Below, piece by piece: positions 1-13,090 of a DNA stretch of 13,090 nt. How positions within the stretch are numbered: position 1 is the stretch's first letter; the number at the start of each line of letters is the position of its first letter. Under the pieces are notes generated by a model. The model was not told the origin of the DNA and searched no databases. It saw nothing but the letters and a program-made list of their open reading frames with translations. The translations under genes and the position numbers were made by a program. The DNA is from Candidatus Omnitrophota bacterium (GTDB lineage: Bacteria > Omnitrophota > Gorgyraeia > Gygaellales > Profunditerraquicolaceae). The stretch spans positions 1-13,090 of the forward strand of contig JAGVOR010000049.1 of the NCBI GenBank assembly GCA_020052635.1. The letters are read 5' to 3'.

Positions 1-195
1 CACCACTATTTTCCTTCGCATTATTAAGTGTGCCCTATGGCGATATGCTAATAAACAACAGCACAGCGGATAAAAACCCAATCGTAGCTGTAATTATATT
101 TTCTGTTCTTGGAATCTTTCTTCTCGCCTATATCTGGGTAGCGATGGGTATTGGATCTGTTGTGTTGTACGGCATAATGCAATTATTCGGATTAA
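1..195 (+). other. Membrane hairpin at the left edge (domain of the giant CDS)
   Basis: Residues 1-12 are hydrophobic (PLFSLALLSVPY) and look like the end of a membrane helix that begins upstream of the window. A short polar loop follows (DMLINNSTADKN). Residues 27-64 are then almost uninterrupted hydrophobic sequence, including FSVLGIFLLAYIWVAMG, long enough for one long helix or two tightly packed ones. The chain becomes soluble after the LFGLKDN segment. The layout resembles the hairpin at 9702-9860, so the enzyme domains between the two probably lie on one side of the membrane. Helix number and orientation are inferred from hydrophobicity alone. Confidence 0.7.
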
Positions 196-3100
196 AAGAT
201 AATCCGCTCCTGCCGGATTACCATCTATGTAATCCAAATTTGCGGCCGAAATTATACCGGGCATTAGGGAAAGAATCTTTTTTTAAGGTTACATATTTAC
301 CAGAACTTTTGGATAGGATGATAGGTAGTAAAGACAGAAAGAGAACAGCGGTCTATAAGAAATTCATAGCAGAGCTTAATAAAAGAGGGTGTCCTGTCGT
401 ATTTAAGATTATGGAAGGAAAGTTGTATTTTATTGGTAGGAATAATACTCTATACCTTATCAACGTGGAGAGTAAAGAGGTTATCGATGAGATAGGTATG
501 AGTGTATACGAGGAAGATTTGGTAACATTTAAGCCAGTATTCGAGGTTACTTCTGATCTTAGGCTCAAGCCCGCGGCCAGGAGAGATTATAGCGTGCACA
601 CGGCTGGTAATTTCTATGGCCCAGCGGATATCGAAAGGGCCGGTGGGATCGGACAAATAATCCCGTTGCAAGCGAATAGCAGGATTTATGCGGTAGGAGA
701 TATTATTTCGCTTTCATTAGAAAAAGCGGGTATTAAACCGTATCTGCAAATATATGACGGCAAAAGCGGCAATGAGATGATTCCTGAACACACGGAATTA
801 ACGGCAGATTATATAGCAGTTAATCCGGACGGATTTCTGACTGTAGACTTGTGGAGAGCCATTAAGAAGGCCAAGCCATATAGTAGTATATTTATTGAAG
901 GAGAGGAAAATTTCGCGGCTTTACTGGCGATTTTAGCGGCCAAACCGGGAGATGTTGTGGTTTACGGAGTAAGCAGTTATAAGGTAGAAGGAGAGCTGCG
1001 CAATGGTATAGTTATGCTAAGGGTAACTAAGGCTTTAAAGAGAGAGGTCGCGCAAAATATCGGCAGAAGGTATGAAGAAACGGGGGATAATATTTACGGC
1101 GGGAAATACCAGATCATTGAGAACATGGCCAGGGAATTGGATAGTAAGCTGAGCAGTAAACTAAAGCGAGAACTTTTTTACATACCGGCTTTAGTGGTCT
1201 GTCTTTTCGATGATTACATTGATATTAACGGCTTTGAAAGGATAATGCAACTTAGAAAATCACCGGTAAGATTTATTTATACTACTGACGGGCGTCTGTA
1301 TTTTGTCGGTAAAAAGCAGTATTTATTTGAGATTTCCCTTAAGAGCTGGGGGCAAGCCGATCCTAAGTATCGCCATCAAAAAGACTGGGCACCGGATGCG
1401 CCTCAATATACAGATCCACGCGATCTAGAGTTGTGGGTAGAAAAACGTTATCCGGCCAGAAGAGCCTTCATCATGGCTGTGGAGCGGCCGCTGAAAGAGG
1501 CCTTATTTTACGATTACATGCTTAATCCGCTCGGCAGTCCGTTTGCCGAATCCATCCGGGAGAAGATATTTATCAGTTCAGATTACTTAAGCTGGAAGCT
1601 AGAGATTGTTTATCGGGAGCTGTTCTTTAGGCCCTGGAGCAGCGCCGAGGAAATTTGTACTATTTTGGCCCGCGAGCAGAAAAAACGTGACCACTTCTAT
1701 TATCGCCTGGATCGGCCTTCGGTTGTCTCGGTAGCTGGGGGAGAGGTAATTACTAAAGCTGAGATTGAATCTGAAAGAGAAGATTTAATAGCGATCTACT
1801 ATTTTATCCAGCAAAGCGAATTTCTGCAAATGTTTGCCTTAAGCTATTCTCCGGTAAATAACTATATTGATAATATTAAAGGATTTTTGGGCGATCCTGC
1901 GGTGCGGGCTCTGGCGCTGGGTGAAACCAATGAATACCATGGCACGGGTTTAGAACTACATATCGGAGTTTCCTGTACCTCTAATTGCGTTTTTTGCTAC
2001 AAGCGTGTTAACGGAGAAGCAAGGAATCACTATTACCGCGAAAGGCTGGCTAAGACGGTCAAGCTTACCCCGGCCGACTATGTGATTATCATTAATGAAT
2101 TCGCTGATGCCGGAGGCAAGACAGTATTTATCTCCGGAGGGGCCGAGCCACTGACAGACTGGCCGGCGGTAAAAGCCGCCATTGAGGCTGCTTCAGCAAG
2201 GAACCTGAACATTTACCTTTACACTAACGGTGTTTTGTTGGATCCTAAGCTTCATCCGGATATTTATGAAGTTTTAAGGAAGTGCAGCAGAATCAGGTTT
2301 AGCCTGGAAGCTGCCGATGCAGTAGAGTATGCCCGGATTACCCAAACCAGCACCGAAGTATTCGCTAGGGTAGTGAAGAATATAAGGGAGTTTAGTAAAA
2401 CAGTAATAAATAGGCGGCCGGAACTGATCGCGCATGCCTTGGTTACGGCGGATAACTACTATGATGTATTAAGAATGGTGCAGCTGGTTGAGGAGTTGGG
2501 ATTGTCTAGGCTGGATTTGCGTTACGATTATTGCGATGTGACCTCCAGGTTATCTGAGAGGGATGTCAGAAGGCTGCTGCGGGTCATTAGGCAGAAGCAG
2601 GCGAGAAATGTTGTTATCGATCCGGGTGATGCATTTGAAAATGTGGGAGGCAGATTTATACCGATGCCATGGGATATTTTCCCACAAACATATTTTGATA
2701 AAGGCATCGGACATCTTACGCCGACTATTGATCCTTTTGGTTTTGTTTGGGAATCCCCGACTTACGCCAATGCCAGTATACGTTACGAGCCGGATATGCA
2801 GCAGTTTAATCTTGGTAGGATCCAACCGGGTCAAGCCGCCAGAGGCGATTTAACCAGTATTGTGGTAAGTAAAGGGGTTAGGGCAGCGGTTAAGCGCACA
2901 TACCGACCGGATAGAATGTCTCCTTTTGTTAGGGAGGGGCTGATTGAATTCTACCGGCTTGAACGCGATAAGGAGTTTGGTATACCTGCAGATTGCCATC
3001 CTTTTATCGGTTACCACCGTACTTCTCTAACTATGGCGATCGATAAAGTAAAGGCATTATTGCAAAGGGATTTCGGTCTAAGCCCTAAAGAAAAGCGGGT

Positions 3101-6100
3101 AATCGGCGGTGAGGGAAGCGTATTTAGTATGCTGAAAAAGACCCTGGATATCGTTACCGGAAGATACGCCTGGTTTGGGCATCTTATTACAGTTGGGGAT
3201 TTAAAACCCGGTTTAGTTCACGCCCGCGTGGTAAAATTCGATATCGATCGTGAACAGTTTAGCGAAGAAGAAGTAATTTTTGTTGATTATACTACTTTCT
3301 CCGGCACCGCGGAAGACAAAGCCGGTATTATCGTTACCGAAGGCCAAGAGGTTAATTCTGAACTTGACATAATCGCGGTCATCTTTACCCACAATAGGGA
3401 CCTTGATCCAAGGTATCTTGAAGCAATCCATTTAAAAGTAGAAAGATTGGGTAACATAGAGACTATAGAGCAGGCAGTAAGTGAGAATCACGCTCTGGGC
3501 ACAGATTATGAGTATACAGAAGGAGTGAAGAGCAGGTGTGGCTCTAAAGGCAGAAGAAGCACGCGTTTATCTTTTAACTTTGGTTCCCGCAGGCACTGGC
3601 CGGGAGAGGCTCAACGCAGTGCGCTCATCGCGGTAAGTTACCGCAAGCACAGAGGTTCTCTGATCACGCATTTTTCGGATTCCCAGAATGTGGCGCTGGT
3701 TAGGCGGTTGATCCGGCAGTTTATCCCTGATTTGAATATCCAGGAATCGGTGAATGTGCCTACCCAGTCCTTTGGCCTCGGCTTTAGGCACTCCTTGGAT
3801 ATTCTTCTTGCCGGCGGGGTGCATGAATATCTTAAAAAACACAATATTCCGGGCGAGGATGGTATTAAAATGCTGGCTTATCCTTCCACGATGTTTGTTT
3901 TAGCTCTGGATACGGAAAAGATTCCACATGGCACGCCATGCAGTTCTTTTGTTGCCGAAGCTGAATTCAATGCGGAGGGTAGGGTGGAGTCAATCGAAGC
4001 AACGGATACCCTGGATGTATCCGGTCAGCATAGAAGACAAACGATGCCTTTCCACCGGATGGGTTTACAGGGTTTGACTGCTTTAGGGGCCAAGTATTTA
4101 AAGCTTAGGGCGCGGACCGTCCAAACTAATAATAACCTGGTGGCCATGCCCAAAAGAGGCTATCTTATTGAGCAAGGGGTGATCATTGCCAATAAGATTA
4201 TGCATCGCATCGCGATAGAGCTTAAAAAGAACATTTTTGATGTTTGGAGGATAAATTTTACCGCTGCTAACGCCAGGCGGGTGATTGAGCAGGCTGAAAC
4301 AAGCTTTAAAAACAAATATGCCCGTTGGGATGATGCTGTGTTAATTTGGAAAGGATACAGGTATGCTACCCACAAGGACAAGCTTAAATTGGCGCTGGGG
4401 CCGGGATGGAAACTTCTGGTAAAGAATACTATTGTTGACCTGGGTACTTTTCCCAAGCGAACGATCGTGGATATTTTAAATAACCTCTACCATTTCGGGA
4501 TCAGGGAAGATGAATTAGAAATTGTCACCTCAAGCACCGAGGCCCAGGATATCGGCAGCGCAGGGAATTCTGGATACTCACCGATGTTTGCGCAGTTATT
4601 CGGTGTTTTCTATAATGAATTAATGCTTTTGATTAATGAGTATGAAAATTTATTCATCGTTAACGGACAGGATATTGTACTTAGGGAATATGTAGATTTT
4701 GATGACGGCTCTAGATTTAACTCCGGCGATAAGCTCACTCTTTGGCAAGCCTTAAAAGTATTAGCCGTCACTTACCATTGTGAATCAGATATCGGAACTT
4801 TCTTTATCAAGCTTAGGGGAATTGCCAGGATCGAAGATAATACCGATGGTAGCGGGTTATTTGCCGGCACCAGCGCGCTTCTGCCTAATGCCGATGATCT
4901 CATGGATCTTGAGCACACTGTTTTTGGGGCAGTGCTTACACAGTTAGACAGAAATACTTTGTTACCCAGAAAGATGAAGATTATTGTTGACTGCGGTAAA
5001 ATTTTAAATAAATCCAGGGTAGAATCCCAGTTTGTCAGCGGAGCCTTAGACAGTATAAGAGATTTATACGGACGAGAGCTTAAGCCGGAAGAATTACCCA
5101 AAATAGAGATTGAGTTACTTGAGCAAGCTGACGGTCCGGTAAGGGGGATCGGTGAAATAACGACTTTTGCTTTTGCTGGGGTAATCTCCGCTTTTGAGAA
5201 TGCCCTGGGCGTTAGAATAGATAAGACTCCGATATCCGTAGAGGAAATTAGAGAAACCAGAAGACTGCAGGCAGAGTTGGTAGAGATGCCGCATGGGGTA
5301 TTTGCTTTCCATCCGGCCGCCACAGGGGTTAGAACTAATCTTGAGCAGCAGGAGCTATTCGCCTCCTGGAAGCCGGTTACGTTAGGCTTTTCGCACCCCG
5401 GTAGAGACTTTACGTTAACCGACTTGTTAAGAATTAATTTATCAAAAATACTGGGGGCGAGGTTTGAGGGCCTTAGACAAAGGAATATTCCTATTCGGTT
5501 ACAGCGTTTTGTCTCAGATGGGGCCGACACCCCAGCCCAGATCCATCCTGAGGAAGGAGAATTTACCAAAGAGGAGGCTTGGCTTATCGGCAGGGTGCCT
5601 GAGCAGGGTGGGTATATTTATTTAGGCCTTAGGGATCCGGCAGATGCAGAAGCATTCTTTGCGGAGATTGAAAAAGGGAATTATCTAGAGGCTAACGCCT
5701 ATCTAAATAAAATGAAAGTAAAGAGCGGAGAAATCTTTTACATCAAGCCCGGGTTAATCCATGCGGCCGGTCAGGGGGTTGAGGTAATCGAAGTGCAGCT
5801 TAATCCGGACAGCTTAACTATCCCTGTTGGCAGGTTCAACGCAGAAAGGAGCAGGATTGATCTTGTGGCAAGCGCGAAGGTCGCTCGCAGGTTACCCGAA
5901 TTAATAGAGGTCAAGCAGGTTGATTTATCAAGCGATAAAGAATTAATTGTTGAGGCAAAGGATAGCGCGGTAATCATTATGCCTATCCAAGGCAAAGCCG
6001 CCTTCCGCCTCGCTGAAAAAACTCCATTAGTTGCTTCGGTGTTTGATTCGGTCCTTCTGCCTGCTGAATCAGCAATGAATGTAAAAGTAGCCCAAGGCGG

Positions 6101-9100
6101 GAGCGTTCAATTGTTATGCGTGTCGCTCAAAGGTGGGTTGAATATTGCTAGTCGCAAGGTTTCCCAGCAGGATCTTATAGAAATGATCCAGCGAAGCTTC
6201 ATCTCCCAAGAGATAGATGCATTATTAGAAAATATAGCAGAATTTTTAGGCATCGAAGGGGAGGATAGAGATCTTTTGTTGAATAAGGAGCACTTGCAAG
6301 AATTACTGGAGTATCTGGGCATACGCTTTGACGCGTACTTTTTGCCGCAGCAGGCCTATTACAAAAAGGATCTGTTCCCGCACAAATCAGAGAGGGGAAG
6401 AGGTGAAGTTTACCGGCACATTATAGTTTTGGTGTATATCGATCCGGCTACCGGCAGAAAAGAATTTGTTGCCGTTTCCCGAAGACTGATCGAAGCATTT
6501 ATCCTTAATAAGCGATCCGGCACCCCTCTGGATAAGCTAACCCAACAGCAAGCCGCCATTCGGCCTAAAAAGATCCTTTTAATCAATCCGGTTTTTAATG
6601 CCTCGCACTACTCCTCGCTTACCTACGCCACAGGCATCAAGTCGCTAGCGGCTTTTCTGGCCGATAGATTTAAGGTGGGGATATTATTCCGGAGGCGCTT
6701 CTACGATAAGCTTATTTACACACCGGATGCCTATCCAGAATTTGAGATAACCATTATGTCTTTGGATATTCGGCAGCAACACGGTGAATTCGTAGAATAT
6801 CTAAAACAAGAGCAGCCTGATATCGTAGGCGTGACTTCAATTATCCACTTCTTAATCTATGCTTTTGAAATAGCTGCTGCCGTAAAGAAGCATTGCCCGC
6901 AAGCCAAGGTGGCTTTAGGCGGCATCTCTGCTTCAGCCGAACCGCAAAAAGTTATGCTGGAACCGGCGATCGACGTGGCCTTTGTCGGGGAGAGCGAAGA
7001 GGCCTTTGCGATTTATGTCTATGAGCTCTGCAGCCAGAATCCTGATTTTGCCAGGGTACCCAATATGCTGTGGAGAAAAGACGGCCAGGTTATTCCCAAT
7101 CCTTTAGGAGTAGATGTGTTTGATATCGATGAAATGCCATTTGCCTCTTACGCTAATGATTTTGTTTATGATTTGCAGATTAAAGGCAGGCCGCTGGCTG
7201 CTTTGCGCGATGCCGCCATTGTTACGGCTACCGGATGTTCTTTTGCTTGTAAGTTTTGCGTGGTTTCCCAGGCGCTGAAAGACTTAAAAGTCCGCCTGCG
7301 TTCTCCTCAGCATGTGCTGGAGGAACTCCGGTATCTTATTCAGGAATACGGGATAAGCCGCAATTTCTTTTTGGATGACCTTTTTACGGTAGATATGAGA
7401 AGGGCGGATACGATAGTCGACGGCATAATCGAATTAAAGAGATTTGGCATGCCGTTGAATTGGCTTATTTATTCGAGGGCAGATAGCGGGGTAGTGAAGA
7501 AGGAGTTCCTGATTAAATCCAAGAATAATGGTTTAGAGATGGTTAACTTAGGGCCGGAGACCGGCGATCCGGCGATGCATATCGAGATCAATAAGCGTTT
7601 GAATATCGAACGGATTATTGAGTTTGTATCATGGTTACGGGAACTTGACCTGGATGATTACCATTTCTATATTATCGGAATTCCGGGGCAAGATTGGCGC
7701 AGTTTAAAGAAAACCGCAGAGCTTGTATTGAAATTAAGGCCGAAACAAGCGATGATGTGCAGTTTAAGTCCTTATCCGGGGACGGCTTATTATGTTGATC
7801 CGCGGCTAAAGTTTGACCGGGAAGGCATCTATGAGTTTGTATTGCTTGAAGAAACCGCGTCCAAGTACTCAACCAGCGTAGTTGCCGACCACCTTCCTTT
7901 CCTGGAGAGAAGCGATAAGCTTTCACGGGATGAGATAAGAGAGGCGGTTTCATTATTAAGTGATCTGGCCTTAGCCGCTGAGCGCAGGAATCAGCCTGAG
8001 ATAGACCGGATTATGGAAATTATTGATCGGAAGATTGAGTTGCAGGATAGCGTACGCAGTTTTACCGATGCTGTCTCTTTAGACGCAGATTCGCATTCCG
8101 GGCGTATTGCTTCTAGCTCCCTGGCTTTAGGGAAAAACGGTTATATCGTCAAAAGTCTGGCCTACCAAGATTTTGTCCAGCGTAACGGCTTGGATGAATT
8201 CATGCGAGAGCATATCGGTGATTTCGCCGTGGTTAGAGATAAAATCTTTAATGGAGAATTTGATGCTACAGTAAGATTTGCTTTGCGCCTAATTTACGAA
8301 AAGTTCAAAGAACAATATCCTCAAGGTAGGTTAATTATTTATCCGGTTGATACGCTGATCCGTTCTTATAATACCAAGACTTACTTAATTCATGCCTTAG
8401 AAGAGCTCGAAACGGCGATTAAAGAATGCTGGGGCACTTATTTAAGCGAATCGCTAAGGGTTGATGGCGATTTAGAGCTGGTAATCCAATGTATGCCTGA
8501 TTCTGCTTTTGCCCAAGAGTTTCTCCGGTCACAGGCAACGATCCAGGGATTAGAGAGAGAAATCAATCTGATTAAGAGAATGATCGGCCGATTAAAGGCG
8601 ATGCAGGAGGATGGGTTAATTAGCCAGGTGGAAGAAGGCCTACTTTTACAAATACTTAATGTCCAGTTAGATAAATTTATTAGTAGCATTCTTAAGGAAT
8701 ATAATCAGGAAGGTATCTTTTTGCAATGGCTATTAATTTGGCTTTTTAACATTTATCCATTTGGAGAATATCAATATATCGATCCGGCTAAAGAAAGTAT
8801 GGTTACAACAAGAGCGCAGCCAGTGTCACTGAAATTGGTTTCCCGCCAAGACGCCACCGGTATTTTAGCATGGATTAAGGCTAACTTAGCAATCGAGGAA
8901 GAAGCTAATATTCGAACGCCATTTGGCCCGCTTAATCGCGAGAAAGTATTAGAGATATTACACGTAAGCGAGCAGGATGGCGTTGCCGAATGGGTTTTTC
9001 TTTACCAGCAGCAACACGGCATAAGAGGCGTGGAGCCTAAAATTTCCTTATGGGACGAATACGATCTTAATCTTCCTGTCGATACCGGTTACCGCAGGGA

Positions 9101-12100
9101 TCCTGCGGCCGCAAGAGCCATGAGGGATAGTTTCAAAGATTATCAAGTTAATTGTCTATCTGTTTCCGGAACTTTTGATACCCCGCTTCATGAGGGACAC
9201 TTAAGATATCTTGAAAGCGCGCTGTTGCTCTTAAGGGAAGAGGGCTTACTTGTTTTAGTTATTAGCGGCGAAGGGCTAGCCAAGAAGAAGCTCTTTAGTA
9301 GTAAAATGGCTTCGCTCGAGGAAAGGCGGGATAATTTAAGAAGAGTAATCCAAGAGTATCAACGCTTAGGTCTAGCCCCTAGAAAAATGACTATAAATTT
9401 CAGCAGGGTAATTGGATCTGATGATGCTCACATTACTGCGGCTATGGCGCCTAAGGTAGAGGCAGTAGTGATAACGGATGAGGGCAGTAGGATAGAAAGA
9501 AATAGGTGGAGTAATTTAATCCGGGGGAGCTTAATGGGGTTGCCTTCCCGGAGCTTATTTATTTTACCGCAGATAAAAGATGAGGAAGGAGTAAAGGTTA
9601 GGTCTTCGGCCATCCGGGGTTTGTCCATATTAAATGAGATTCGCGCTAATCTGAATAAAAGCCAAGCCGGTGGCGCTGCGGAGCATCCCGGCAAGAATGA
9701 TTTAATATTATGCAACGTCCTGCTGCCGGTCATCGGCAGTATATTATATATGGCTAAATCCGGCCAGATCGCTATCAGCACAACCGTAATCCATTGGTTA
9801 GCCGTATTGGCTTTGGCGGTGCTTTTGGTTATTTTCTTAGTGAAGTTTTTAAATAGCAAAAATAAGATGAAGGATAAAGCAGTATCCGTTGATATAAAAC
9901 TGCCACAGGATTTAGTTAGCCTTTCTGAGGCCCAGCTAATGGCTAACTTTTTAAATAATTATTTGGATACCGATGAAGAGGCGCTGATTGATATTATCTA
10001 TAAGAACCAGAACCGTCTTCAAGAAAGATTGAGCAGGCTTATTCCCGAATATGAAGCGGCGATGGCCAAAAACTCTCCCTTTGCCCGCAACCGTTTTAGA
10101 GAATTGGGTTTGTTCGATAATTTAACCCCGAGCATTTTTTCCGAGCAGGCAGAAGGTAACCGTTTTACCTTCACCGGGCCTTTAACCGGCCAGGCTGTCG
10201 ATTTATATCTTCTTTATCGCAACGAAAAGCCGTATTTCGTGCATGCGTCTCGTGCTCCTCCGACCGTATTGTTGATTGCCTCGCGCCTTCCGGGGAATTT
10301 CCCCTCTTACCAATATAGTCCCGCTACTCCTGAACATAAAGAACGTCTTGTCCGCCATAAAGCCATGGGGATCTCCCAGCTCGCCGCCTGCCTTACCGAT
10401 ACCGGCTACCTAAGAAGATTATTCGCAGCAATCAGCAAGGGAGATGCCGAAAGAACTCTTCTCGCTAAGGATACTTCACTCATTACGGAATACCTGAAAT
10501 CGCATCAGGATGAATTTCCGTTAATTCATGTTGTCACCATGGACCTAAATACTGAAGATAAGGATTTTGATCTAACCGTTTATCTTAAGAAAAACTATCC
10601 GGCCCAAGAGCCATTAATAATCGGATTATCCTGTATCGGGGGGGTTAATTATCCGGGGATGCTTCAGGCAATCAGGCAGATTAGAAGCTACAGCCAGTCA
10701 GTTAAAATAATCGCCGGTGGTACGCACCCCACGATTATTAATACCAGGATTTTTGAGGATACCCAGGGAGCAATCGATTATGTGGCTATCGGTGCGCATG
10801 TCGAAATGTTCCCTTATCTAGTGTATTCGACTTTAGCCGCTGAAGATAGAGAGATTAAGTTTGATTTAGGGTTAGTTGATGGTTTTGCTTATAAGGATAA
10901 CTCCGGCACGGTAATTAAGAATGAGCCGCGCTTCCATTACCTGGGGCTGGATGACTACCCGATGACTACCCTAGGCACCTTCTTCTTACGGCATTTTTTA
11001 ACCCGGTACAGCCGCAGCCATGGCAATATTAAATTCGGCGAAGGTTGTAAAGGTAAATGTAAATATTGCGCCGCCCGGGTGGTTGAAACAGTGCTGGGGC
11101 GCAATGGCCGCCTACAAAGGCTGCCGATAGAATACCGCAGGCCCTTGCGCGTTATTAAAGAGATGAGGCTGTTATATCTGACCGGGGTACGCAATTATTT
11201 TATTCTTGATGATACTTTCGGGGTGGACAGAAAGATAAGTATGCAGTTGTTAGCTATTCTTGAGCGTCAAAGAGCTAAGGCTGGTCCGCTAGAGGAGATA
11301 GTTTGGGACGGCTGGATGCGAGGGGATGTTTTTGATGAAGAATTAGCGCAAGCGATGTATAAAGCCGGATGTCGCGGTTTACACTTTGGCGCAGAGACCG
11401 GCGAGCAATCCTTGGCCGATTACATGGAAAGAATTATGAATATGGAGGAGATTATCGAAGGCATCCGGATTGCCAATAAATATGATATTAAGCCTTCAGT
11501 CTATTTTATGCTGGCTTTGCCCCGCCAGGATTGGCAAGGCATATTTTCATCGGTCAGGCTGCTTAGAAAACTAATCGAAATCGGGATTTATGCGCGTTTC
11601 TGGACAATTATTATTGTCGAACACGGTACCCAGTTTTATTACGAAGGCGAAATACTTTATGATTTAGATCCGGGGATGACTATTGAAGATGTCACGGCGG
11701 CTACCCTGGAAGGTTGGAGTAGGCAGCGGATGGATGGGGCGGTTAATCTGCAGGATGAGATATTAAGACGGAAGGTAAGCTTAAAGACTTACCGGCTCTC
11801 TTCCGTAGAGATATCTGAGGCGGATGTTTTGGTAGAGTTGGGTGATCTCTATGCCGATAATCAGGCGCAGCTTGATCAGCTTCGCGCAAACGTGGTTATC
11901 GACCAGACTGTTTATGCACATCCGGATGTTGACGATCAGGAGATTGATGGTAATGAAACAATGCGCCAGCGCCGAGTAGGCCTTTGGGGAGCGCTGCGCC
12001 ACGGCAACTTTTATGAAGAGGCGCTGGAAGGCTTATCGCAGATCAGCGCGGAGGATAAAGAACTATTTTTTGATCGCTGTTTAGAGAAAGTAAAACTGGA

Positions 12101-13090
12101 AAATGGGTATGGACTTTTGGCCGGCTTAGGAGGTGAAAGCGCGATTAAGCTTATGTATCTGGTGGCGCTTTTAATTAGAGAAGAAGGATTTAACGATACA
12201 AATTCTTATGAAGGGTTCCTGGTTAATTTCTCCGCAGTAGATGCGGGAAGAATGAAGAGTTTCTTAGAAAATGTAAGTTTTGACGATTTAAAAAAGATAA
12301 GAAATGGCACCGCGGTGACCGGGCGATTAAGAGCGGCCTTCGGGATCAAGATTGACTGGGAGTACGCGATTCCTTACCGAAAGTATAAAGCCAGCGAAAG
12401 GTGGCGCAATGCCCAGCATTTGTATGCCAGACTGGTTTTAGATTTATCCGAAGTTAGGATGGCAGCCGCAGCAATGATCGCTCCTCTTGAAGAAGTATCT
12501 ATTTTAGAAAAGATAAAGGATATTGAATCTAGGCTCGCACGAGCAAGAAGCATTAATAGATTAATAACGCTGAGGACTGATTTAGAAAAAGCCTATCAAG
12601 ATTTCGAAGCGGCTATGCGATTAAGAAAAGTAAGGTTAAGCAGGCGTTCCCAAGATGTAGGAATTTATTATCCTGGCGAAGGACCGGTTGAATTATTGAT
12701 GGAAGATTTACTGTCCGGTGAAACACAAAGTGGCAGATGGAGGATGGGCTCGGCGGTAGTTTCGGCAACTAATGTAGCGGCATTCCGGCAGTTGTTTATT
12801 CTAAAACGATTGGCATTTGCTAAAGATATGGATATCTTTCCGGCCATGGAAATAGAAACCCAGGATGGCTTTGCGCTTAAAGCGGTTTTTCTGCCGGCAG
12901 ACTTAGATTTTACCGGGGTACTAGATAGAGGTCTTACGCTTGTGGAGTTATGTGCACGGCTGAAAGCCGCCTGTCCAGAGTGCTTCCTGATTCTAAAGCG
13001 CTATGACCATCAGGCTGAAAATTTCGCGGGGGCAGTAGAAGTAATCCAGCAAAAACTTATTGCGGCTTTAGAGGTGGATGCTAGCGAAGA
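1..13090 (+). CDS. Giant multidomain membrane-anchored protein, partial at both ends
   Basis: A single open frame runs from the codon at base 3 to the right edge: 4,362 complete codons without a stop of any kind, so stop-codon reassignment is not needed to explain it. Both ends lie outside the window. The chain carries, in order, a membrane hairpin, DUF359 (GTP-dependent dephospho-CoA kinase family), radical SAM, xanthine-dehydrogenase-type molybdopterin domain, phosphomannose isomerase, cobalamin-binding radical SAM, phosphopantetheine adenylyltransferase, a second membrane hairpin, and a second cobalamin-binding radical SAM, with unrecognised helical linkers between. Codon choice looks similar throughout (AGA/AGG and CGN arginines mixed everywhere), which argues against a very recent insertion of any one part. 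The frame crosses every domain junction without a shift, so these are not separate operon genes. Giant genes of this kind are known from Omnitrophota; assignment to that phylum is an inference. Whether the product is cleaved after translation cannot be seen. Confidence 0.95.
390..473 (+). repeat. Short beta-rich unit, copy A
   Basis: Residues 130-157 hold the pattern C-P-V-V-F, then G-K-L-Y-F-I-G, then L-Y-L-I-N-V-E-S. The same pattern returns at residues 420-448 as S-P-V-R-F, G-R-L-Y-F-V-G, Y-L-F-E-I-S-L-K-S. The alternating hydrophobic residues suggest a few beta strands joined by tight turns. The two copies flank the DUF359 domain. The function is unknown, and I do not recognise a named family. 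The upstream stretch (residues 70-129) is mostly helical and basic, with no recognisable motif. Confidence 0.5.
555..1055 (+). other. GTP-dependent dephospho-CoA kinase-like domain (DUF359) within the giant CDS
   Basis: Residues 185-351 match the DUF359 family (COG1909), which in archaea phosphorylates dephospho-CoA with GTP in the last step of CoA synthesis. Visible signatures in order: the LKPAARRDY start with a following YG-P segment; AVGDIISLSLEKAGIKP (GD at 232-233), the family's GDVVS...GIKPDL element; YDGKSGN (D252, G253, K254), matching the DGK motif; NPDGFLT (N274, P275, G277), matching NPxGxIT; EGEENFAALLAI (residues 299-310), matching the DGEEDLLALPAI strand; then GDVVVYGV and a final VMLRVT strand. 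The length of about 167 residues fits a whole family member, so the domain is not truncated. The aspartate of DGEEDL is replaced by glutamate (E-G-E-E-N), and one loop (PEHTELTADYIAV) differs from typical members. The partner activity, PPAT, lies about 8 kb downstream on the same chain. I am confident of the fold and less sure of the activity. Confidence 0.82.
1056..1934 (+). other. Unrecognised inter-domain region with second beta-rich unit
   Basis: Residues 352-644 link the DUF359 domain to radical SAM domain 1. They begin with a helical part (KYQIIENMARELDSKLSSK), pass a hydrophobic stretch (LFYIPALVVCLFDDYIDI) too short and too acidic to be a clear membrane helix, and then carry copy B of the short beta unit (1260-1346). 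Beyond it is an aromatic, charge-rich helical section (for example FYDYMLNPLGSPFAESI, and EEICTILAREQKKRDHFYYRL). The section just before the radical SAM core (YIDNIKGFLGDPAVRALALGE) may be its N-terminal cap. No catalytic motif that I know is visible. It could be a scaffold or a divergent domain. Confidence 0.5.
1260..1346 (+). repeat. Short beta-rich unit, copy B
   Basis: Residues 420-448 repeat the pattern of copy A at 390-473: S-P-V-R-F, G-R-L-Y-F-V-G, then Y-L-F-E-I-S-L-K-S. Alignment needs only single-residue gaps. DNA identity is low, so this is an old duplication or a reused small fold, not a recent copy. Confidence 0.5.
1935..2850 (+). other. Radical SAM domain 1 (no auxiliary-cluster cysteines in its tail)
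   Basis: Residues 645-950. The [4Fe-4S]-binding motif C-x3-C-x2-C is present as SCTSNCVFCYK, with C658, C662 and C665, preceded by a first beta strand (LELHIGVS). The SAM-contacting GGE-like motif follows as ISGGAEPL (G712, G713, E715), then the strand YLYTNG (740-743) and the strand RFSLEA. This is the order expected for the partial TIM barrel of MoaA/SPASM-like radical SAM enzymes. The C-terminal part (PTIDPFGFVWES, then FNLGRIQPG) resembles the region where SPASM proteins hold auxiliary-cluster cysteines ('dG.v.pC ... lGni'), but serine stands where cysteine is expected and no cysteine follows. It can therefore bind the radical SAM cluster but probably not extra clusters. The substrate is not predictable. 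It has no cobalamin-binding part, unlike the two later modules. Confidence 0.9.
2851..3116 (+). other. Linker between radical SAM 1 and the molybdopterin domain
   Basis: Residues 951-1038. Mixed helical sequence with no recognised motif. It includes GIPADCHPFIGYHR and a basic helix (MAIDKVKALLQRDFGL). The first part may complete the radical SAM fold; the end leads into the VTGR element that opens the next domain. Confidence 0.45.
3117..5264 (+). other. Xanthine dehydrogenase/aldehyde oxidase-type molybdopterin domain
   Basis: Residues 1039-1754, about 715 residues, the usual length of the molybdenum subunit of this family (hydroxylation of purines, aldehydes or aromatic acids). The a/b hammerhead opens with DIVTGRYAW and LKPGLVHARVV, then INVAVVAE-like sequence (LDIIAVIFTHNRD). 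The molybdopterin part shows G-x3-H-x3-E around SRRHWPGEAQ, a S-Q-N strand, FGLGF (1257-1261) in the place of GGGFGGK, EGRVESIEATD in the place of DGxIxAxxxD, PKRGY with R1385 in the place of the AFRGFG arginine, VDLGTF in the place of TEMGQG, MKIIVDCGKILN for the conserved late strand, and VRGIGE with E1718 aligned to the catalytic glutamate of GxGEPP. Co-factor loops are altered (GQG and GGFGGK are not exact), so the substrate range or cofactor form may differ. The iron-sulfur and FAD partners this family needs are not in the window. Confidence 0.82.
5283..6150 (+). other. Type I phosphomannose isomerase-like cupin domain
   Basis: Residues 1761-2050. Phosphomannose isomerase (ManA) interconverts mannose 6-phosphate and fructose 6-phosphate with a zinc ion, feeding GDP-mannose and glycan synthesis. 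The metal ligands of the family are all in place: Q1846 and H1848 in AQIHPEE (family VQVHPD), E1858 in TKEEAWLIG (family GKTExWYI), and H1920 in KPGLIHAAGQGVEVIEVQLNPDS (two parts of the family's PAGTIHAxGxGxxxLExQxNSD). The segment after E1858 aligns with the family's 'Y.G......eef...i..G...e.L....v..GD.f' pattern. The loop between H1848 and E1858 is shorter than in stand-alone bacterial enzymes. A second beta region ending in VKVAQGGSVQLLCVSLKG fits the C-terminal jelly roll. The first part (SHPGRDFTLTDLLR) is divergent. Fold assignment is firm and activity likely; the true sugar is unproven. Confidence 0.85.
6151..6566 (+). other. Linker after the isomerase domain
   Basis: Residues 2051-2188. 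A helical start (QDLIEMIQRSFISQEIDALL, then EHLQELLEYLG) is followed by a short beta segment (YRHIIVLVYIDPATGRKEFV) and an RRLIEAFI helix. It leads directly into the first strand of the cobalamin-binding fold. No motif is recognised. Confidence 0.45.
6567..7820 (+). other. Cobalamin-binding radical SAM module 1 (radical SAM 2)
   Basis: Residues 2189-2606. The N-terminal part has the Rossmann-like B12-binding order used by class B radical SAM enzymes (BchE/methyltransferase-like): KKILLINPV, then GIKSLAAFLAD, QPDIVGVTSI, AKVALGGISAS and IDVAFVGESEEAF. As usual in this class there is no DxHxxG motif, since the base is not coordinated by histidine. The radical SAM core has TGCSFACKFC with C2412, C2416 and C2419, then FFLDDLFTVD, then LGPETGD (E2519, T2520), then IIGIPGQDW (residues 2558-2565) and SPYPGTAYY. 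Known relatives methylate unreactive carbons or phosphorus, or rearrange rings; which applies here is unknown. The IPGQDW motif has QD where most relatives have GE[TS]. The later module at 10260-11700 shares this oddity. Confidence 0.9.
7821..9128 (+). other. Unrecognised, mostly helical region
   Basis: Residues 2607-3042 separate the first cobalamin radical SAM module from the adenylyltransferase domain. A helical bundle follows the barrel (SRDEIREAVSLLSDLAL, then EIDRIMEIIDRKIEL). The part around residues 2700-2835 could be a small alpha/beta domain (RLIIYPVDTLIR, then LELVIQCMPDS). Then comes a coiled-coil-like stretch (8532-8709), a short hydrophobic run (FLQWLLIWLFNIYPF), and a final soluble segment with VLEILHVSEQDGVAEWVF. 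I recognise no family or catalytic residues. Roughly 1.3 kb with no assigned function. Confidence 0.5.
8532..8709 (+). other. Predicted coiled coil in the unrecognised region
   Basis: Residues 2844-2903 show heptad-like spacing of hydrophobic residues among charged ones (QGLEREINLIKRMIGRLKAM and QLDKFISSILKEYNQ). Typical of a helical spacer or oligomerisation helix. Judged by eye only. Confidence 0.4.
9129..9660 (+). other. Archaeal-type phosphopantetheine adenylyltransferase-like domain
   Basis: Residues 3043-3219. The HxGH nucleotidyltransferase motif is exact: VSGTFDTPLHEGHLRYL, H3063 and H3066. It is followed by the second nucleotide-binding strand (LVLVISGEGLAKKKLF, family VGLTSDExxxxK), the helix EERRDNLRRVIQEY (family P-x-x-x-R-x-x-x-L), and the third motif RSSAIRG (3200-3206), matching ISSTRIR. 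The segment EAVVITDEG fits the strand AIVVSPET of the archaeal and eukaryotic PPAT family (COG1019), which differs from bacterial CoaD. That enzyme makes dephospho-CoA from ATP and 4'-phosphopantetheine. Other HxGH cytidylyltransferases such as TagD-like proteins are the main alternative, but the AKKK and SSxIR spacing favours PPAT. It is on the same chain as the DUF359 domain, which would carry out the next step. Confidence 0.8.
9702..9860 (+). other. Membrane hairpin (two transmembrane helices)
   Basis: Residues 3234-3251 (LILCNVLLPVIGSILYMA) and 3262-3282 (VIHWLAVLALAVLLVIFLVKF) are hydrophobic enough to span the membrane, joined by a short loop (KSGQIAIST). A low-complexity GGAAEHPGK segment precedes the first helix. 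A strongly basic stretch (NSKNKMKDK) follows the second helix, so by the positive-inside rule the chain after it is probably cytoplasmic. With a short loop, the sequence on both sides would be on that same side. Confidence 0.8.
9861..10259 (+). other. Linker between membrane hairpin and second cobalamin module
   Basis: Residues 3287-3419. Helical segment (SEAQLMANFLNNYLDTDEEA, then NQNRLQERLSRLIPEYEAAM), then a beta section (NRFTFTGPLTGQAVDLYLLY) that leads to the B12-binding strand. No recognised family. Confidence 0.45.
10260..11700 (+). other. Cobalamin-binding radical SAM module 2 (radical SAM 3)
   Basis: Residues 3420-3900. The B12-type fold begins TVLLIASRLPGN and continues with MGISQLAACLTD, LIIGLSCIGG, VKIIAGGTHPT and DYVAIGAHVEMFPYL (family VVIGEGE.TF). 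The radical SAM core has EGCKGKCKYCAA with C3682, C3686 and C3689, then YFILDDTFGVD, GLHFGAETGEQS (E3798, T3799), and MLALPRQDWQ (Q3842, D3843, W3844). Compared with module 1, the order of strands, the LDD-F-VD element, the ETG element and the P-x-Q-D-W element all recur, so the two modules are paralogues. The insertion between the first helix and the second strand (DAERTLLAKDTSLITEYLKS) is longer than in module 1. Substrate unknown. B12 binding is inferred from fold order. Confidence 0.9.
11701..13090 (+). other. Unrecognised C-terminal part of the window
   Basis: Residues 3900-4362 follow the last radical SAM core. The first part is acidic (VELGDLYADNQAQL, HPDVDDQEIDGNE). A helical section (LLAGLGGESAIKLMYLVAL) has no recognisable motif. 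Residues 4161-4216 look like a coiled coil. From about residue 4217 the order GEGPVELLMEDLL, MGSAVVSATNVAAF, MDIFPAMEIETQDG and LTLVELCARLKAA loosely recalls the PHP fold, whose third conserved element is 'iPGiEi', but the metal-binding histidines of PHP enzymes are missing. The chain continues beyond the window, so the domain boundary is unknown. Confidence 0.4.
12483..12650 (+). other. Predicted coiled coil near the right edge
   Basis: Residues 4161-4216 have heptad-like hydrophobic spacing among charged residues (ILEKIKDIESRLARARS, then LRTDLEKAYQDFEAAMRLRK). Probably a helical spacer before the last segment. Judged by eye. Confidence 0.45.

Follow-up and report, generated by a model that had tools for sequence, protein, structure and literature searches.

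The window (the whole stretch of DNA analysed here, 13,090 bases long and identical with the complete contig C2 of its genome) very probably comes from the interior of a genuine giant gene, whose product would be a membrane-tethered polyenzyme belonging to a set of mosaic giants in the phylum; its kind of B12-radical SAM domain recurs in several of these giants, and several contain sugar-phosphate enzymes in chains. A membrane-tethered giant whose modules are kept as one polypeptide is the best explanation overall, held at about an even chance. The usual interpretation of bacterial giants is that of adhesins or surface weapons whose content cannot be read, whereas much of the readable content here is metabolic, and enzyme domains with conserved invariant residues sit in frames of 11,858 and 27,888 codons. 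Two observations go beyond an earlier sequence-only reading of this DNA: enzyme-laden giants recur in the phylum, and the B12-radical SAM type of the window groups with that of other long frames.

The open frame and its chain of domains

Frame 3 of the + strand runs through the window without a stop and is open at both contig ends (Table 1); since the window spans the entire contig, the start and stop of the gene lie outside it. A chance open frame was rejected, as base composition predicts approximately 263 stops across the 4,362 codons, none is present, and frame 3 is the best of six in all 21 successive 600-nt windows by codon-usage scoring (trained on 93 ORFs of at least 300 codons from other contigs of the same genome). 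No frameshift is apparent in these 21 windows, the entire length of which reads as coding. Besides a GTG-started version of frame 3, the other ORFs of at least 100 aa are two, of 265 aa and 143 aa, both on the - strand. The synonymous usage of the frame correlates with that of the genome's own genes at r 0.93, and with that of other giants at 0.91 (a genome of the same genus, G017) and at 0.88 and 0.81 (two more distant genomes). The uninterrupted gene of at least 4,362 codons proposed by the sequence-only reading is thus upheld by a stop-free frame and by native codon usage throughout.

The genome comprises 1,093,863 bases in 199 contigs and is 69% complete; no 16S was found in these contigs. 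Among the 40 contigs that were read (four of them masked as N), the window is the sole readable one that is open end to end, and the next-longest frame in the remaining ones has 1,345 codons. That the contig is chimeric or mis-binned is a very improbable reading. It draws on tetranucleotide composition, in which the window correlates with 20 contigs of its own genome at a mean of 0.82 (own contigs with one another: mean 0.90, 5th percentile 0.84) and is matched as well by stretches of G017 (0.85) and G224 (0.82), and on the occurrence of amino acids 1101-2100 in a long frame in none of the 26 other members of the genus. However, the codon usage agrees with that of the own genes more closely than with that of the three other giants, the coding frame is constant, the same genus has a giant frame in G017, and the frame itself would stand even if the contig were mis-binned. 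Chimeric assembly is unlikely in view of the uniform codon usage and of the giant frames in related genomes, including a complete frame in a genome of a single contig.

Table 1. Features of the protein encoded in the window, with amino acid numbers counted along frame 3 and base positions counted along the window.
Feature	Amino acids	Position	Strand	Basis or remark
Single ORF		3..13088	+	4,362 codons, truncated at either end of the contig
Membrane segment	22-59	66..179	+	Hydropathy
DUF359, archaeal-type GTP-dependent dephospho-CoA kinase domain	237-351	711..1055	+	Pfam, PDB 8jvc, NCBIfam
Radical SAM domain 1, without B12 domain	654-800	1962..2402	+	Pfam and motif; CxxxCxxC at aa 658
Xanthine-dehydrogenase-like molybdopterin-binding fold, probably degenerate	1123-1749	3369..5249	+	MoCoBD_1, plasmid records, hhalign, alignment
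Mannose-6-phosphate isomerase class I domain	1846-2013	5538..6041	+	TIGR00218, PDB 1qwr
B12-binding and radical SAM domain 2	2248-2575	6744..7727	+	Pfam, motif, trees; CxxxCxxC at aa 2412
Nucleotidyltransferase domain	3056-3205	9168..9617	+	Pfam CTP_transf_like, NF001985
Membrane segment, probably a hairpin	3232-3287	9696..9863	+	Hydropathy, flanking Lys/Arg
B12-binding and radical SAM domain 3	3535-3847	10605..11543	+	Pfam, motif, trees; CxxxCxxC at aa 3682

Approximately half of the chain belongs to no recognised family. All three radical SAM domains score above the Pfam Radical_SAM cut-off with an intact CxxxCxxC, and the second and third are divided into a B12-binding part (aa 2248-2337 and 3535-3604, respectively) and a radical SAM part (aa 2407-2575 and 3676-3847). 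The chain has two strong membrane segments; weaker hydrophobic stretches at aa 305-323 within DUF359 and at aa 2273-2294 within a B12 domain are taken as belonging to their domain folds and not to the membrane. Three and four Lys/Arg residues stand beside the hairpin, which would place the neighbouring enzyme stretches on the cytosolic side and would suit radical SAM and kinase chemistry; such numbers are small, however, and the first segment, with 0 and 1, is uninformative on topology.

The sequence-only reading had also described a chain of distinct enzyme families in place of a repeat adhesin or a polyketide/peptide synthase, and this is borne out by the Pfam and NCBIfam searches and by the repeat scan. 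No tandem repeats of the repeat-adhesin sort were found in the window, no adhesion or polysaccharide-degrading domains are among the Pfam and NCBIfam matches listed for it, and a polyketide/peptide synthase was rejected, with no synthase, carrier, condensation, or adenylation family among those matches. The chain might also be a polyprotein, translated as one and then cut by a protease into separate enzymes, for which the modules are suitably well separated and peptidase M54 and M48 domains occur inside two scanned giants. However, the matches of the window include no protease domain, and its self-comparison returns the B12-radical SAM pair only, with no repeated linker, so that cleavage of this kind is distinctly unlikely.

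Possible coenzyme A-type modules and divergent domains of the window

DUF359 scores 53.4 bits in Pfam against a cut-off of 25 and matches PDB 8jvc at E 3.5e-10, and its score for the equivalog NF041125 is 54 bits against a cut-off of 300. The GEED motif of 8jvc reads GEEN in the window kinase, with Asn replacing the Asp of the one solved homologue. Of the 384 phylum genomes, only the one containing the window was found to have this domain, and given this sole occurrence, its source was probably an archaeon. A dephospho-CoA kinase of the usual bacterial type is separately encoded in the same genome, as it is in 26 of the 27 genomes of the genus (own one included), so the DUF359 copy in the giant is an extra one.

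The nucleotidyltransferase is over the cut-off of Pfam CTP_transf_like (39.2 bits against 21), and its best NCBIfam model is NF001985, the archaeal-type pantetheine-phosphate adenylyltransferase, at 33.2 bits against a cut-off of 104. The match spans positions 8-145 of the 157 in the model, and bacterial CoaD scores 15.5 bits. An assignment to the archaeal enzyme by score alone was rejected as not discriminating because equally high scores over a portion of NF001985 are reached by common nucleotidyltransferases in the phylum: among the matches listed for this model, scores of approximately 28-42 bits occur in 141 of 193 genomes, nearly all over the first 60 or so model positions. E 1e-6 was not reached by the window nucleotidyltransferase in the search of the 193 genomes. 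With a score that does not discriminate and lies under the cut-off, the subfamily is a suggestion only, and the superfamily alone can be called certain from the sequence. Should the best model name the domain correctly, one chain would carry the two final steps by which archaea make coenzyme A, approximately 2,700 residues apart.

The isomerase scores 34.4 bits for the class I equivalog TIGR00218, against a cut-off of 116.2, and is similar to PDB 1qwr (E 1.5e-5). A search with aa 1101-2100 against 96 other genomes returned three matches only, each of them a stand-alone isomerase. Judged by eye in the translation, the nucleotidyltransferase and the isomerase both keep what we take to be their cardinal motifs.

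The stretch preceding the isomerase resembles the molybdopterin-binding part of xanthine dehydrogenase, with MoCoBD_1 at 22.8 bits (cut-off 27), an hhalign probability of 84.6% against four matched plasmid proteins, and no PDB match. Plasmid records matching it number 23, and five of the 15 listed are annotated, all five as molybdopterin proteins. In the alignment, the C-terminal GIGE is kept and the GGSFG and GQG stretches are missing, so that the stretch departs from a xanthine dehydrogenase molybdopterin subunit in Pfam score and in two motifs, and owing to the missing motifs, it is probably not a working molybdoenzyme. Some modules of the window may be dead, in view of these absent motifs and of the Asn in place of Asp in the kinase GEED.

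Giant frames of the phylum and their enzymes

When the 384 phylum genomes were searched with aa 601-3400 (E up to 1e-25, at most two candidates scored per genome), 195 of them gave matches, most of those listed being ordinary B12-radical SAM frames of 380-560 codons and some lying within very long frames. None of the matches listed is long. A whole-window orthologue was therefore rejected, as none was found with aa 1101-2100 in the 96 genomes or with aa 601-3400 among the matches listed of the 384. A search of viral contigs found no relative.

Giant frames are found in several relatives, and many of them end at contig ends. In G017, which belongs to the genus of the window, contig C35 is one frame of 27,888 codons over its 83,666 bases, open at both ends. 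Complete frames occur in G157, a single-contig genome (45,379 codons, G157:C1:1156625-1292761, with 42 strong membrane-like segments and a leader ending in AFLHQDIVWA), in G140 (11,858 codons, G140:C42:124125-159698), and in G402 (2,841 codons). The frames of G149 (19,582 codons) and G202 (11,160 codons) are open at one end, that of G201 (8,764 codons) has its start and its end beside unread bases, and a contig of G224 holds 17,444 codons, open at both ends. The left end of G224:C6 and the right end of G224:C56, in frames of 17,444 and 3,035 codons, carry the first and last parts of one phosphoglucose isomerase (PGI) domain; the two are probably one gene of more than 20,000 codons split by assembly. 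By eye, the start of the G140 giant and that of a 1,885-codon neighbour in G202 both show a stretch resembling a signal and then a similar segment surrounding 'AH' and 'EGA' motifs, which could possibly be a shared exported N-terminal module.

The giants of G017 and G202, which belong to two different families, share approximately 1,800 collinear residues at 45-66% identity, and modules accordingly seem to move between giants. G017 and G224 share approximately 590 residues at approximately 58% identity. Judged from such alignments, the giants of the phylum are mosaics. Nothing detectable is common to the window and the other giants compared outside the B12-radical SAM domains, and its kinship with the giant ORFs of the phylum was found through that set alone.

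The set was recovered in two trees, both unrooted and built from rows chosen by similarity to the window, which may favour clustering. The first (careful setting) contained 33 B12-radical SAM domains, namely, all 28 such loci taken from the search with aa 601-3400, one further giant (G202), the two window domains, and two stand-alone domains of the same genome. Frames of more than 700 codons contribute 10 of these domains, and nine of them, including both from the window, are united in one set (support 100/99). The remaining one, from a 753-codon frame of G224, is placed among the 23 stand-alone domains, and none of 500 label shuffles clustered as well. The second (quick setting) added G345 (967 codons), two frames of the window's own genome (753 and 966 codons), and the 19,582-codon frame of G149. 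G345 joins the set, which then has 10 rows at SH-aLRT 99 with no stand-alone rows inside, and G149, on a very long branch, and the two own-genome frames fall outside it. In total, frames of more than 700 codons supplied 14 distinct domains, of which 10 fall in the set, together with none of the 23 stand-alone ones. The first B12-radical SAM domain of the window pairs with that of G402 (support 92/91, and 90 in the second tree), and the second has a long branch that leaves its exact place unsure. The second tree slightly weakens the radical SAM argument, and the two window domains keep their place in it; the set is a family of long frames, though not one used by every long frame.

Metabolic enzymes were found inside several of these giants. 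A Pfam scan covering 26,400 of the 27,888 residues in G017 revealed two PGI domains (78% mutual identity), hexokinase, all four phosphoglucomutase domains, 6-phosphogluconate dehydrogenase, and glucosamine-6-phosphate isomerase/6-phosphogluconolactonase among the sugar enzymes; further families are damage-control phosphatase (two), CofD (two), B12-radical SAM, DegT, APS kinase, and PHP (two), in addition to a shikimate dehydrogenase N domain, methyltransferase, histidine phosphatase, OMP decarboxylase/HUMPS, SIS, amidohydrolase, and TPR, among others. The G140 giant (9,957 of 11,858 residues scanned) carries transketolase, PfkB, hexokinase, Glu/Leu dehydrogenase, PALP, phosphoglucomutase, CofD, KDPG aldolase, and UDPGP, together with a PGI near its end that is the only one found at E up to 1e-10 in this 96% complete genome. 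Radical SAM, cytidylate kinase, PGI, a PEP-utilising enzyme, glycogen phosphorylase, and others were found in G149 (9,796 of 19,582 residues), and the frame of G402 has a glucosamine isomerase/lactonase and a PAS domain besides its B12-radical SAM. The partial scans of G224 (9,110 of 17,444 residues; a peptidase and UPF0489 only) and G157 (10,000 of 45,379 residues; B12-radical SAM, HEAT, TPR, a CxxCxxCC domain, and a weak ROK) show hardly any metabolic enzymes. No adhesion domain is named among the families listed in the scans of G017, G140, G149, G224, and G157.

Hexokinase_2 (PF03727) gave 41 matches in 38 of the 384 phylum genomes, as compared with none in 14 control genomes. Fifteen of the 41 lie in frames of 1,423-32,526 codons, and the majority of the listed copies are stand-alone (24, in frames of 416-495 codons), with one more in a frame of 690 codons and one partial of 86. 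The hexokinase around G401:C5 53865-54566 lies within the 32,526-codon frame. PGI (PF00342) has a match in 212 of the 384 genomes; the full E. coli-like type, counted from listed rows of more than 140 bits only, was found among the matches listed in 28 genomes, 13 of them with a frame of fewer than 700 codons and 15 with a frame of more than 1,100. In six of the latter 15 genomes (G140, G400, G224, G028, G074, and G148; 82-96% complete), every PGI detected at E up to 1e-10 lies in such a long frame. A Planctomycetales-titled record contains the closest match to the PGI of the same-genus giant, 77% identical and likewise part of a long frame (at least 4,529 codons); among the best 80 of at least 594 relatives in that search, the 12 other loci checked have frames of 553-612 codons.

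The conservation of PGI was compared in an alignment of 12 stand-alone genes and 10 full domains from nine genomes with long frames, after removal of incomplete copies, one of them stand-alone and the others from six further genomes. The 12 stand-alone copies have 175 invariant columns, of which the embedded domains retain 168 (both copies of G017, G149, and G400), 166 (G140), 165 (G162), and then 152, 147, 145, and 140; when one stand-alone copy at a time was left out as a control, it lost 1 to 36 columns. Mean identity of the embedded domains to the stand-alone copies is 47-64%. On this alignment, six of the 10 embedded domains appear to be held about as tightly as separate enzymes, and the four lowest more loosely. 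It is unlikely that the modules are dead, former enzymes that a surface protein would retain for binding or structure: the xanthine-dehydrogenase-like part without its cofactor motifs and the scores of several modules far under equivalog cut-offs speak for such decay, whereas 140-168 of the 175 invariant positions are conserved in the 10 full PGI domains of other long frames and the radical SAM Cys motifs of the window are intact in all three domains.

Proposed tethered polyenzyme, possible export, and known giant proteins

In the polyenzyme reading, the chain would be made whole and would act as a tethered multi-enzyme. Its modules would be active enzymes held together by covalent linkage and by the membrane segments, forming a second enzyme set beside the separate housekeeping enzymes of the cell, and the share of the window in this chemistry would be coenzyme A, mannose/fructose phosphate, and SAM-radical reactions; this mechanism and role, taken together, fall somewhat short of an even chance. 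More tentatively, the phylum may build giant polyenzymes, each a single membrane-tethered chain of thousands to tens of thousands of residues put together from exchangeable modules, that duplicate portions of central metabolism in active form (hexokinase, phosphoglucose isomerase, phosphoglucomutase, transketolase, pentose phosphate and coenzyme A enzymes, and radical SAM), possibly for use on or inside prey. The findings hint at an undescribed way to pack metabolism into single giant molecules.

The strongest rival, by virtue of Sec-like starts and of the duplication of housekeeping genes, is an exported chain acting on prey, in which the giant would be delivered and its enzymes would act outside the cell or inside prey as chained effectors. 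On visual inspection, the starts of G140, G157, and G402 resemble Sec signal peptides, in which basic residues precede a hydrophobic stretch that closes with an AxA-like or WA sequence, and an AFLxQDxxWA leader is common to two of the three; however, only the G157 leader passes a hydropathy threshold of 1.9, and the start of G201 has no such leader, though it lies beside unread bases adjoining another long frame. The enzymes of the giants often duplicate separate housekeeping ones, and the window kinase is of an archaeal kind that the phylum otherwise lacks in the 384 genomes. Radical SAM and kinase domains require SAM, nucleotides, and reduced iron-sulphur, and these needs count against activity as delivered cargo. 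Should the phylum be Omnitrophota, the accessible parts of two papers would fit delivery, describing a predator of archaea among Omnitrophota (PMC13153191) and a 3-fold increase of giant-ORF peptides in attached cells of the predator (PMC10066038). On balance, export is rather unlikely, and the membrane-tethered polyenzyme remains the preferred reading.

Several metabolic enzymes on one polypeptide are familiar from eukaryotic CoA synthase and from further pathway fusions such as fatty acid synthase, which join two to approximately ten modules of one pathway. Compared with these, the modules of the window come from several pathways and stand on a far longer, membrane-anchored chain. The word 'giant' does not occur in the main texts, as far as accessible, of two papers on Ca. 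Velamenicoccus archaeovorus (including PMC13153191).

Exceptionally long genes were attributed to Omnitrophota in the sequence-only reading, and this agrees with the accessible parts of two papers (PMC10066038; PMC12057145). Of 116 Velamenicoccia genomes, 77 were described as having giant ORFs of more than 20 kb, which also occur in further classes of Omnitrophota (Seymour et al., 2023, PMC10066038); by that measure, the window offers 13.09 kb of a frame open at both ends. In the same text, as far as accessible, these ORFs have few annotated domains and poor conservation between genomes, some have adhesion domains (discoidin, laminin G, and dockerin) or a proposed polysaccharide-degrading role, and a 39,678-aa example has 42 predicted helices (PMC10066038). 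The window resembles them, as they are described there, in a frame far beyond normal length, membrane segments, and poor conservation, but differs in that its annotated parts are metabolic enzymes of the intracellular type (PMC10066038). Huge proteins of Cand. Omnitrophica were noted to have no COG assignment in the accessible text of another study (PMC11573180).

Giant genes have been summed up as surface weapons or cellulosome-like structures in the part of a further paper that was available (PMC12057145). The giant genes of predatory bacteria cited there (West-Roberts et al., 2023, compared by the citing description only) occur in Omnitrophota and related groups, where the predicted products have membrane helices and reach 85,800 residues, and are described as having carbohydrate degradation domains and as surface weapons. 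The large protein of Ca. Menyafoubacter is listed as alike in its signal peptide and its approximately 6,000 residues, but it has beta-helix, polysaccharide lyase, Rhs-like, and adhesin domains, with no metabolic enzyme chain in the accessible description (PMC12057145). The literature search, with bioRxiv preprints outside its scope, found no report of glycolytic enzymes in giants of the Omnitrophota type or of radical SAM in bacterial giant ORFs. As a kind, the giant bacterial ORF is thus known, and set beside the accessible texts, with West-Roberts et al. (2023) as cited in them, the metabolic content of the giants and their long-frame radical SAM set look new.
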